NCBI RefSeq assembly: GCF_016859125.1
Contig: NZ_CP069338.1
Span: forward strand, 4,961,501 to 5,025,500
Direction of reading: 5' to 3'
Length of the DNA stretch: 64,000 nucleotides
Origin: Archangium violaceum
GTDB lineage: Bacteria; Myxococcota; Myxococcia; Myxococcales; Myxococcaceae
The notes below the pieces were generated by a model, which was not told the DNA's origin, ran no database searches, and saw only the letters and a list, made by a program, of their open reading frames with translations. Position 1 is the first letter of the stretch. Each line of letters begins with the position of its first letter. Both the position numbers and the translations under genes were made by a program. Shown here piece by piece: positions 34,677 to 37,611 of the stretch.

Positions 34677-34919
34677 CTACGGTCGGCCGTTGTCGGCCGG
34701 CTGATCAAAGGCGAACTGCTCCGCGCGAGGCGCGGCGTCGTCGTGGAACAGGGGGCACTTCTGACAGGAGAAGCCCTCCCAGTCCTCACGCACGGCCGCG
34801 TCGATGCACATGGAGTAGAAGCGGCAATGGACGTTGCGGTAGTCCTCGACGCGGTGGTGGTCCGCCCACATGGGTAGGCGGAGCTCGGTGGGATTGGGCT
34901 TCGGTTGCGAGCAGGCCAT
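34677..34919 (-). CDS. Small four-cysteine protein
   Basis: An 80-residue protein from ATG 34919. It contains a cysteine array HCRFYSMCIDAA...FSCQKCPLF: two cysteines six apart and a C-x-x-C pair, plus one near the N-terminus (MACSQ). This is a likely zinc or iron-sulfur site. There is no signal peptide. GGGAG is ten bases before the start. No family was recognised. It lies alone between the sugar operon and the DsbA-like gene. Confidence 0.6.
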   Translation of the reverse strand: MACSQPKPNPTELRLPMWADHHRVEDYRNVHCRFYSMCIDAAVREDWEGFSCQKCPLFHDDAAPRAEQFAFDQPADNGRP

Positions 34920-35055: not shown

Positions 35056-35664
35056 TCAGCGCCGGGGCCGTGCTCCCGCGCGGCGGGCGGCCTCCGCGAA
35101 CACCTCGTACGGCTGGCAGCCCACCACGCGGACGTCCCCGATGAAGAAGGTGGGGATGCCACTCACGCCCTCCCGCTCGCCCTCCTCATGCTGGGCGTCC
35201 ACGCGGGCCTGGTAGCGGGGCGCGTCCATGGCGCTCCTCGCTTCCTCTCCAGACAGGCTGGCCTGCTCGGCCAGGCGGGCGAGCACGTCCGGGTTCTCGA
35301 GGTCCTCGCCGCGCTGCCAATGGGCCTCCATGGCCGCTTCGTAGAAGGCCTGGAAGCGACCCTGTTCCCGGGCCCACTCCGTCAGCGCGAGCACCCGGCG
35401 TGTGTTGTACAGGTGTCCGGGCACCTGGATGGAGACGCCGAAGCCCCGGGCGAACCGCGCCACCTGGCTCCGCATCATCTCCGTGCGGCCCCCGAAGAGC
35501 CGCTTCAGGGGCACTCCACCCCGGGGCGTTCCCGGGTTCAGCTGGAAGCCCTTCCACTCCACCTCGACGTCGAACTCCTCTTGCAGCCTGACCAGGCTGC
35601 TCCGCTCCGCGATGAAGCAGTACGGTCAGACGAAGTCCGAATACAGCCGGATGCGCACGGGCAT
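35056..35664 (-). CDS. DsbA/FrnE-family oxidoreductase with in-frame TGA at the catalytic Cys (probable selenoprotein)
   Basis: From ATG 35664 (AGAGAGGTG just upstream) the frame is intact for 202 residues if TGA 35628-35626 (codon 13) is read through. The start reads VRIRLYSDFV-[TGA]-PYCFIAERSS, exactly where FrnE-type DsbA proteins have FVCPYC or FVCPWC, so the TGA replaces the nucleophilic cysteine of C-x-x-C and gives U-x-x-C. The rest is normal: a helical insert, then GVSGIPTFFIGDVRVVG with the cis-proline. A perfect hairpin follows the TGA at a SECIS-like distance. There is no other stop or frameshift. Read as an ordinary stop, a shortened product would lack the active site. Function: thiol-disulfide or selenol redox in the cytoplasm; no signal peptide. 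Selenocysteine is inference. Confidence 0.75.
35583..35600 (-). promoter_or_regulatory. SECIS-like hairpin downstream of the in-frame TGA
   Basis: On the minus strand: GCAGCCT GGTC AGGCTGC, a perfect 7-bp stem with a GGUC tetraloop. The loop begins 32 bases after the TGA. Bacterial SECIS elements are described as a short stem whose loop has a G in the first two positions, 16-37 bases after UGA, and E. coli fdhF has GGUC in its loop. The hairpin lies inside the coding frame as expected for bacterial elements. Confidence 0.7.
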
Positions 35665-35754
35665 GGGGACACCTCTCTGTCCAGATGAAGTCACCGCTCT
35701 TCTAGCGCCGTGACGCGGCCGTTTCCAGAAGCCTGCCCGGGGGGCGGGCAAGCG

Positions 35755-37611
35755 ATGAATCAGAACTTCATCCCGGCACGCCTTTCCCGGAAGATACTCC
35801 CCGTGCGTTCCTTGCCTGCCCGCCCCCCGTCATCCCTGGCCCGCCGGCTGGGGTTCATTGTTCTCTCACTCTTCGCCCTGCTCGCGGCCATGGGTTGTTC
35901 GGCCTTCTCGCGCGCGGTGAAGGAAGGCGACCAGTTCACCACCGCTCGGAATTGGGAGCAGGCGGAGGCCGCCTACCAGCGCGCGCTCGCCGTGGAGCCC
36001 GGTGACTCGGAAGTGAAGGTGAAGCTGCGCAACATGCGCAAGCAGTGGAGCGCCGAGGTGTTCCAGGCCGCGCAGGCGAAGCACGCCGAGGGGGACCTGG
36101 CCAGCGCCACGCCGCTGCTGGTGCGCGCCATCGAGCTGGACGACGAGAACGACCCGGCGCGCGCGCTGCTCGGCCAGACGCTGGATGCGCGGGTGGCGGT
36201 GGCGCTCGAGGCGCTGAAGGAGGAGCGGCTGCAGGATGCCCGGACCGAGCTCGACGCGGTGCTGGCGGTGGACGCCGAGCACGAGGCGGCGCGCAAGGGG
36301 GTGGTCGCGGTGCAGACGGCCTGGGCGCGCCGGTGGTTCTCCACCGCGCAGCGGCTGGAGGAGGAGGGCAAGCTGGGCAACGCGTTGCTCGCGTACGTGC
36401 GCGCGGACCAGGAGCGCGTGGGGGTCACCCCCGCCCGGGAGCGCGCCGAGGAGGTGCGTCGCAAGCTCCGGGACGAGATCGCCTTCCTGGTGGTGACGGG
36501 GCCCGCGGAGGACAAGGCGGAGGCGCCGGACGTGGCGCAGCGGCTGTCCCCGGGGCGGCTGTCGGCGCTGCTGCCGCAGGAGGTCCCCATCCGTGTCATC
36601 ACCGCGGATGCGCCGAAGGACCACCCGGGCGTGCGCCTGGGGGTGGCGGTGGAGCGGGTGATGCCGGTGAAGTCGGTGGAGCAGGGCCAGAAGTCGCAGC
36701 GCTACCTGGTGACGAACAAGGCCGTGCCCAGCCCGCGCCGGCTCGAGCTGGAGGCCGCGCTGTTGGAGCAGGAGCGCAAGCTGGAGGACGTGGAGCGCAG
36801 GCTGTCGGGCGTGCTGCGTGACTACCTGCGCAAGCAGGACGAGCTGGCCCAGGCGCGCGAGGTGGCCGCCCGCTGCCGCGAGCGCGAGCGCACGGTGTGC
36901 GCCAAGGGGCTGTCCGAGTGCATCCGGGCCTTCGAAAGGGCCAAGCCGGGGAATGTGCCGAGCGAGTGCAACCCCGCCCGCTGCAACCCGCAGTGCGAGC
37001 AGGAGGAGGGCGCGCTGGCGCAGCGGGCCAACGCGGCGAAGGAGCTGGAGCGCCGGCTGGAGGCGGCGCAGGAGAACGCGGAGCTGCAGCGGCGCGAGGT
37101 GCAGCGGGGCCGGGACGCCTACTACCGCGAGCCCCTCACGGTGGAGGAGCCCGTCTACGCCGACTACCCCTACGACGTGGAGCTGCACCGGCTGTCCATC
37201 ACCGCGAGCGTCACCGAGCGGTTGATCGACCTGGCGAAGGACGCGGCGGGTGCCTCTCCGCGCACCGAGGACTACGCGGCCGTGGCCGAGGACTCGGCCA
37301 ACAAGGCCTATGACAAGGTGGGCGTGCTGGCGGATCCGGTGCAGCTGCGCACCGAGGCGGAGCTGCGGGTGGAGGCGGGCGACAAGGCCATGGCCTCCAT
37401 CGCCGAGCGCGTGAAGGAGCGCTTCGACATCTACCGCCAGGGCAAGGTGGAGGACGCACGGCGGGGCATGGTGCGCCCCAGCGCCGAGGACGTGGTGGAG
37501 ACGGCGGTGCGCGCGCTGCTGCTCACCGCGGACGAGCCTCCCCAGGACATCCTCCAGCCGCTGGCCAAGGCGCGCGGCCTGGAGAATCCCGAGGCCATCT
37601 TCGGGCGTTGA
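35755..37611 (+). CDS. TPR-containing lipoprotein with coiled-coil region
   Basis: The frame encodes 618 residues from ATG 35755; a GTG about 16 codons later has a better ribosome site (GGAAG) and is an alternative. The signal ends LLAAMGCSA. Residues 50-220 are TPR-like pairs (ARNWEQAEAAYQRALAVEP, GDLASATPLLVRAIELDDEN). Residues 330-470 are a long charged coiled coil (LEAALLEQERKLEDVERRL) interrupted by a six-cysteine patch (CRERERTVCAKGLSECIRAF and CNPARCNPQCEQ) that could form disulfides. The last 130 residues are helical. It is probably an outer-membrane or periplasmic scaffold. No partner is next to it on the strand. Confidence 0.75.
   Translation: MNQNFIPARLSRKILPVRSLPARPPSSLARRLGFIVLSLFALLAAMGCSAFSRAVKEGDQFTTARNWEQAEAAYQRALAVEPGDSEVKVKLRNMRKQWSAEVFQAAQAKHAEGDLASATPLLVRAIELDDENDPARALLGQTLDARVAVALEALKEERLQDARTELDAVLAVDAEHEAARKGVVAVQTAWARRWFSTAQRLEEEGKLGNALLAYVRADQERVGVTPARERAEEVRRKLRDEIAFLVVTGPAEDKAEAPDVAQRLSPGRLSALLPQEVPIRVITADAPKDHPGVRLGVAVERVMPVKSVEQGQKSQRYLVTNKAVPSPRRLELEAALLEQERKLEDVERRLSGVLRDYLRKQDELAQAREVAARCRERERTVCAKGLSECIRAFERAKPGNVPSECNPARCNPQCEQEEGALAQRANAAKELERRLEAAQENAELQRREVQRGRDAYYREPLTVEEPVYADYPYDVELHRLSITASVTERLIDLAKDAAGASPRTEDYAAVAEDSANKAYDKVGVLADPVQLRTEAELRVEAGDKAMASIAERVKERFDIYRQGKVEDARRGMVRPSAEDVVETAVRALLLTADEPPQDILQPLAKARGLENPEAIFGR

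Follow-up and report, generated by a model that had tools for sequence, protein, structure and literature searches.

The locus considered here raises the question of whether a TGA inside a reading frame of Archangium violaceum ends translation or is decoded, and, if decoded, as which residue and in what kind of protein. The window, i.e. the 64-kb stretch of DNA that was analysed, carries on its reverse strand a 203-codon frame that runs from an ATG at 35664 and holds stops only at codon 13 (TGA) and at the terminal TGA (35058-35056). An earlier note on this DNA had proposed that the TGA at codon 13 is decoded as selenocysteine (Sec). The features are listed below, group A being the set of homologues defined further on.

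35056..35664, (-), terminal TGA included: predicted FrnE/DsbA-like selenoprotein gene, 202 residues with Sec at 13 (translation, PF01323, AF2 model, FrnE fold)
35626..35628, (-): in-frame TGA, predicted Sec13 (translation, conservation across loci)
35617..35619, (-): TGC codon, resolving Cys16 of U-P-Y-C (translation; kept in 24/24 TGA and 5/5 Cys forms)
35583..35600, loop 35590-35593, (-): putative bacterial SECIS hairpin GCAGCCU-GGUC-AGGCUGC (fold, synonymous conservation, paired changes)
35672..35678, (-): ribosome-binding-site-like AGAGAGG (sequence, identified by eye)
35152..35154, (-): codon of Pro171 (SGIPTF), the cis-Pro of the thioredoxin fold (translation; cis assignment from knowledge of the fold)
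35116..35118, (-): third Cys codon, Cys183 in VVGCQPYE (invariant in one set of 23 sequences; 25 of the 28 readable group A loci)
34677..34919, (-): 80-aa ORF with Cys 3, 32 and 38 and a CxxC at 52-55 (five Cys), no Pfam match

The residues flanking codon 13 read YSDFV-U-PYCFIAE, and GC3 is 0.92 in the 12 codons upstream of the TGA and 0.91 in the 189 downstream. With the TGA read as Cys, the Pfam domain PF01323 (DSBA) spans residues 5-192 (E 4e-35). The earlier note had described this gene accurately: the frame is intact apart from codon 13, with no further stop before the terminal one; the ribosome site that it saw ahead of the ATG is the AGAGAGG that ends 7 nt upstream; the TGA occupies the place of the first active-site Cys, where relatives carry the first Cys of a CPxC; and the resolving Cys and the cis-Pro are present as Cys16 and Pro171.

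A mechanical ORF call starts at 35562 and gives 168 aa, a piece that is also found as P0003 in the protein database. As the note had expected of an automatic call from this position, the catalytic site is lost, with both Sec13 and Cys16 missing. The corresponding database records from Archangium minus (185 aa) and A. violaceum (176 aa) are likewise pieces without the active site. No full-length NCBIfam model matched the window protein; NF041057 (Rcas_1661 (seleno)lipoprotein) matched the C-terminal half with 42.9 bits, which is below its curated cut-off of 190 bits.

Homologues were searched for in 59 genomes, our own included, all of which gave matches at 1e-3, many of them to other thioredoxin-like proteins, and class-wide in 147 genomes (own included), 105 of which matched at 1e-20. 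Genes with UP[FY]C or CPFC that are 48-74% identical to the window protein were designated group A, and 29 such loci, the window's own among them, were read in 28 genomes; this count leaves out one more TGA match, in G070 (66% complete assembly). Codon 13 is TGA at 24 of the 29 loci and TGC or TGT at the other five. All 29 have 12 stop-free codons ahead of codon 13 and keep the resolving Cys of U/C-x-x-C, 28 start with ATG and 28 reach a normal stop, L063 running off its contig. The alignment of homologues that had been proposed as a check thus places TGA or TGC/TGT at exactly codon 13, and the decayed 5' part in relatives that would have counted against the selenocysteine reading was not seen, this part being free of stops.

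A separate branch, group B (UPWC/CPWC, 29-36% identical), also alternates, with 23 TGA and 12 Cys forms among 35 parsed loci that were hand-picked from a longer list. Within the window's genus, the best match belongs to group A in G000, G003 and G005 and to group B in G001, G002 and G004. A different recurring hairpin, CGGCCUC-loop-GAGGUCG, is present in group B TGA loci (L017, L018, L020, L021, L023, L026, L029, L070-L073, L076-L079, L081 and L082), Cys forms being found in other genomes. Three Cys forms of the UPWC group (L019, L074 and L075) retain the stem.

A scan of named GTDB genomes, some of which repeat genomes already in the set, yielded 30 group A TGA, 5 group A Cys and 45 UPWC TGA forms among the best 80 of 108 loci. 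Because VGCQPYE was among its search patterns, the scan is no census. New group A genes came from MAGs with the labels Chloroflexi, Dehalococcoidia, Gemmatimonadetes, Neomarinimicrobiota and Thermoanaerobaculia. Furthermore, a TGA-bearing UPWC-YLSTVSI branch (L131-L147 without L137, and L149-L175) has a nearly invariant CTCAGTACnGTnAGTATTGA following the TGA; its hosts are gammaproteobacterial and other MAGs, many of them marine by their titles, and the branch perhaps represents the marine DsbA-like selenoproteins of metagenome surveys. Two group A TGA genes were found together in one assembly (JAKLKF010000004.1 and JAKLKF010000018.1; L099 and L121), and also in G051 (C183 and C237; L008 and L087).

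Support for the selenocysteine reading also comes from a feature that the earlier note did not have, a SECIS-like hairpin conserved at synonymous sites. It has a 7-bp stem and a GGUC loop, and 25 nt separate the TGA from the first stem base. Counting both strands, the 64-kb window has a single perfect 7-bp GGTC hairpin, the one in this gene, and a genome-wide search for a longer pattern that joins TGA and hairpin likewise gave this gene as its one match. Codons +10 to +13 after the TGA read AGC CTG GTC AGG in 24/24 TGA forms and in 0/5 Cys forms. AGG makes up 20 of the 576 Arg codons further on in the 29 genes; the Cys forms encode the Arg at +13 by CGG or CGA, never AGG (0/5), and none of them has the GGTC loop. 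Fisher p-values for these codons are not taken at face value, since the rows are related. The folding energy of the hairpin (z -1.70, with 12 of 200 shuffles equally stable) is weak evidence on its own, so the case for a SECIS rests on the synonymous conservation and the pair changes. No Rfam family matched in the window.

The 54 group A TGA rows collected in total reduce to 37 different sequences, from several phyla, when the first 48 nt are compared. The GGTC loop is present in 32 of these and in 0 of 8 distinct Cys forms, and the stem pairs at 7/7 positions in 25, at 6 in 8 and at 3-5 in 4. The SECIS of the 5/37 TGA forms without GGTC, and of the 4/37 that pair at no more than 5/7 positions in register, would thus differ or sit elsewhere. 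Paired changes at three stem positions amount to 8 double-changed cells, compared with 1.7 in shuffles (0/500 as high), and the true register pairs 92.3% of cells, compared with 18-50% in slid controls. The control slid by +3 columns equals the true register in double-changed cells (8) and has 9 pair types to its 8, but pairs 37.5% of cells and has a covariation score of 0.101 versus 0.188.

The genome is equipped for selenocysteine. Searches of its 12.68 Mb gave SelA (485 bits), SelB (326 bits) and SelD (380 bits), and one tRNA-Sec (73 bits, anticodon TCA) above the Rfam cut-off in the whole genome, so that each of selA, selB, selD and selC, which had been named as a check on the reading, was found. 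No tRNA was detected in the 64-kb window. Two further Sec-type TGAs are present in the genome, one in SelD (HCAG-U-AAK; L048 1402-2454 (-)) and one in a formate dehydrogenase-like gene (NQARI-U-HSS; L179 1501-2253 (-)), the match of the latter scoring below its family's curated cut-off. Both are standard Sec sites.

SelA is present in 23/23 genomes holding a fetched group A TGA gene, and SelB (at 1e-65) in 20/23, with none obtained from the 69-79% complete assemblies G051, G080 and G081. Both proteins were also found in the Cys-form genomes G033, G019, G108 and G083. In G107, listed as 100% complete, neither SelA nor SelB was matched, and the codon there is TGT. As only one of the five genomes with a Cys form is without SelA and SelB matches, loss of the machinery is no general explanation of the Cys forms. 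In 15 genomes of f5, the Anaeromyxobacter-type family (G038, G044, G066-G070, G072, G073, G076-G080 and G083), the SelA match is interrupted near profile position 85, which would fit a short insertion there.

The gene is, on the strength of these comparisons, almost certainly a selenoprotein gene in which the TGA at codon 13 is decoded as Sec. The proposal of the earlier note is supported by the Sec machinery, by the TGA/Cys relatives and by the hairpin, and the genomic features that characterise bacterial selenoproteins come together here: a conserved UGA in place of a catalytic Cys, a SECIS hairpin in the coding region just downstream of it whose small apical loop contains a G, and SelA, SelB, SelD and tRNA-Sec. 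At the ribosome, arrival at the UGA of codon 13 would be met by SelB carrying Sec-tRNA(UCA) and bound to the hairpin 25 nt downstream, and Sec would be inserted.

The predicted structure points to the kind of enzyme. The AF2 model has a mean pLDDT of 96 and places Sec13 just before helix 14-21. In a Foldseek comparison with the PDB, five FrnE entries (TMq 0.82-0.86) and SCO1869 (0.84) come out on top, followed by YjbH (0.69-0.77) and by HCCA isomerase and GST kappa (0.71-0.78). A sequence search of the PDB also has FrnE as its best match (E 8e-17), with the first Cys of the Deinococcus radiodurans CPWC aligned with residue 13. Since, of all solved structures, FrnE matches best in both fold and sequence, the protein falls within the FrnE subfamily, and the PF01323 domain with U-x-x-C at a helix start is that of the DsbA-like (COG2761/FrnE) UxxC family. 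The gene product is very probably a FrnE-subfamily (DsbA-like, COG2761) thiol-disulfide oxidoreductase with Sec in a U-P-Y-C active site. It would probably act as a disulfide reductase or isomerase, and is likely to be cytosolic, no signal peptide being seen by eye. Under this mechanism, substrate disulfides would be attacked by the selenolate of Sec13, which lies where helix 14-21 begins, and the resulting selenenylsulfide would be resolved by Cys16.

Other explanations of the TGA have been weighed against its decoding as Sec. Database gene calls, with a 168-aa product here and 176-185-aa products from Archangium relatives, would fit a sequencing error or a genuine nonsense mutation, with the fragment from 35562 as sole product or the gene in decay. 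We regard the probability of this as negligible. The same TGA is present in 24 orthologous loci from 23 genomes, each of which has 12 codons free of stops ahead of it, and this is more than chance; no other stop lies inside the frame, 23 of these loci end normally and one runs off its contig; and at its synonymous sites the hairpin is invariant among TGA forms but not among Cys forms. Judged by the AF2 model, the 168-aa fragment would lack strand 3-9 together with Sec13 and Cys16. Decay or sequencing error was rejected on the conservation of the TGA and of the stop-free 5' part. A second alternative, also very improbable, is that translation continues past the UGA with Cys, Trp or some other near-cognate residue inserted in most cases, and that the hairpin promotes readthrough in general instead of serving as a SECIS. 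Cys does function at codon 13 in 5/29 loci, and some systems are known to insert Cys at Sec UGA codons when selenium is scarce. Against this stand the SelA, SelB, SelD and tRNA-Sec of the genome with its two further Sec-type sites, and the observation that the sole Cys-form genome without SelA or SelB matches has TGT at the codon.

A selenoprotein could also follow the chemistry of the kappa glutathione transferase/2-hydroxychromene-2-carboxylate isomerase branch, where a glutathione-dependent isomerase or transferase reaction takes the place of disulfide exchange. HCCA isomerase and GST kappa were indeed among the Foldseek matches (TMq 0.71-0.78), and the name FrnE is traced to a polyketide biosynthesis cluster (PMC8945050). 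Nevertheless, this alternative is unlikely to hold: FrnE and SCO1869 come first in structure (TMq 0.82-0.86) and also in the sequence search, and a resolving Cys in 29/29 loci fits disulfide exchange.

The predicted Sec-containing FrnE-type oxidoreductase can be set beside known systems. DsbA-like UxxC selenoproteins have appeared in surveys since 2005, when nine of them were reported under COG2761 in the Sargasso Sea selenoproteome (PMC1088965). A table of 2006 lists a DsbA-like selenoprotein of Anaeromyxobacter dehalogenans (PMC1794560), a TGA-containing DsbA-like cluster was listed in 2007 (PMC1914089), and DsbA-like UxxC selenoproteins are listed in the GOS survey of 2008 (PMC2398784) and in 2022 (PMC9312934). 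A review of 2026 lists the kind as well, with DsbA-like form 1 equated with PF01323, and describes the functions of these selenoproteins as largely uncharacterised (PMC13188914). The kind is thus already known, and the window gene is a further, misannotated member. It shares with the COG2761 DsbA-like family the PF01323 fold, the U-x-x-C, a bacterial SECIS right after the UGA and widespread Cys homologues. Its counterpart in the GOS survey is perhaps DsbA 1 (PMC2398784), the comparison with the selenoproteins of 2005 and 2008, which come from marine metagenomes, being one of description. The window's branch has UP[FY]C, then CF/Y-I/V-AE and, mostly, the third Cys. The A. dehalogenans selenoprotein is also myxobacterial, and is likened to ours by its table description, not by accession (PMC1794560); the loci of three named Anaeromyxobacter species (L125, L126 and L128) have the same TGA and hairpin as the window, their family (f5) differing from that of the window (f1). 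Literature joining selenoprotein, DsbA and myxobacteria was searched for and none was found, and FrnE is absent from the titles and abstract openings of the literature retrieved for selenoprotein and FrnE.

Among characterised proteins, D. radiodurans FrnE (DR_0659; PDB 5cnw, 5co3 and 5xwh) has the same fold (TMq 0.85-0.86) and a CPxC in the same place, with Cys where the window protein has Sec. It is described as a cytosolic disulfide reductase, predicted cytoplasmic, whose C-terminal CXXXXC (residues 239-244) is said to regenerate the active site (PMC8945050). This regenerating pair is absent from the 202-residue window protein, which in this respect is not of the Deinococcus type; the CXXXXC is reported to be missing from some FrnE too (PMC8945050).

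A third Cys may be relevant here. Of the 24 group A TGA forms, one is cut off by a contig end, and 20 of the 23 that can be read have Cys at position 183, as do 5/5 Cys forms. All 35 parsed group B genes have Ala at this position. Cys183 stands at the start of the last helix, presumably where glutaredoxin-like folds hold glutathione, and the fold suggests that it is near Sec13. We speculate, with considerable doubt, that this is an FrnE branch with a three-part redox centre of Sec13, Cys16 and Cys183, where the last of these would substitute for the Deinococcus CXXXXC and either resolve the selenenylsulfide or shuttle it. Sec and Cys alternate, within a single genus, at a syntenic locus. The Ala at position 183 in 3/23 readable TGA forms (L052, L054 and L059) speaks against such a centre.

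The gene is located head to head with a 633-aa ORF (35710-37611), for which no Pfam match was found, and is followed downstream by the Cys-containing 80-aa ORF. The latter is kept just downstream of the selenoprotein gene, being 91-93% identical within the genus and 51-60% in another genus. The three-gene set is conserved in G003 and G005 of the same genus and in G109, G107, G108 and G033 of another, neighbouring genus, where the syntenic orthologue has TGA in G109 and Cys in G107, G108 and G033. From the shared three-gene neighbourhood it follows that species differ in whether the orthologue at this place has TGA or Cys. The neighbour genes were not found around the gene in two more distant genomes examined (G044 and G028), and they give no hint of the substrate.

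A tree built by a quick method from 80 rows, six of them group B, and including 45 of the 84 eligible Cys database proteins, requires at least nine U/C changes; only three of these are forced by well-supported branches. The Cys form L055 is sister to the TGA form L058 (support 99) inside a five-row set with four TGA forms (98), and one Sec-to-Cys change is well supported there. The remaining changes are undirected, and with many deep forks loosely placed the ancestral state may have been Sec or Cys.

These results correct a recurring annotation fault, the Archangium minus and A. violaceum records and the mechanical call all lacking the active site. Moreover, they bring out natural pairs within one genus, a TGA form and a Cys form of the orthologue sharing a locus, with and without a SECIS and in one case without SelA or SelB matches. 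Such pairs are suited to measuring what selenium buys a FrnE enzyme.
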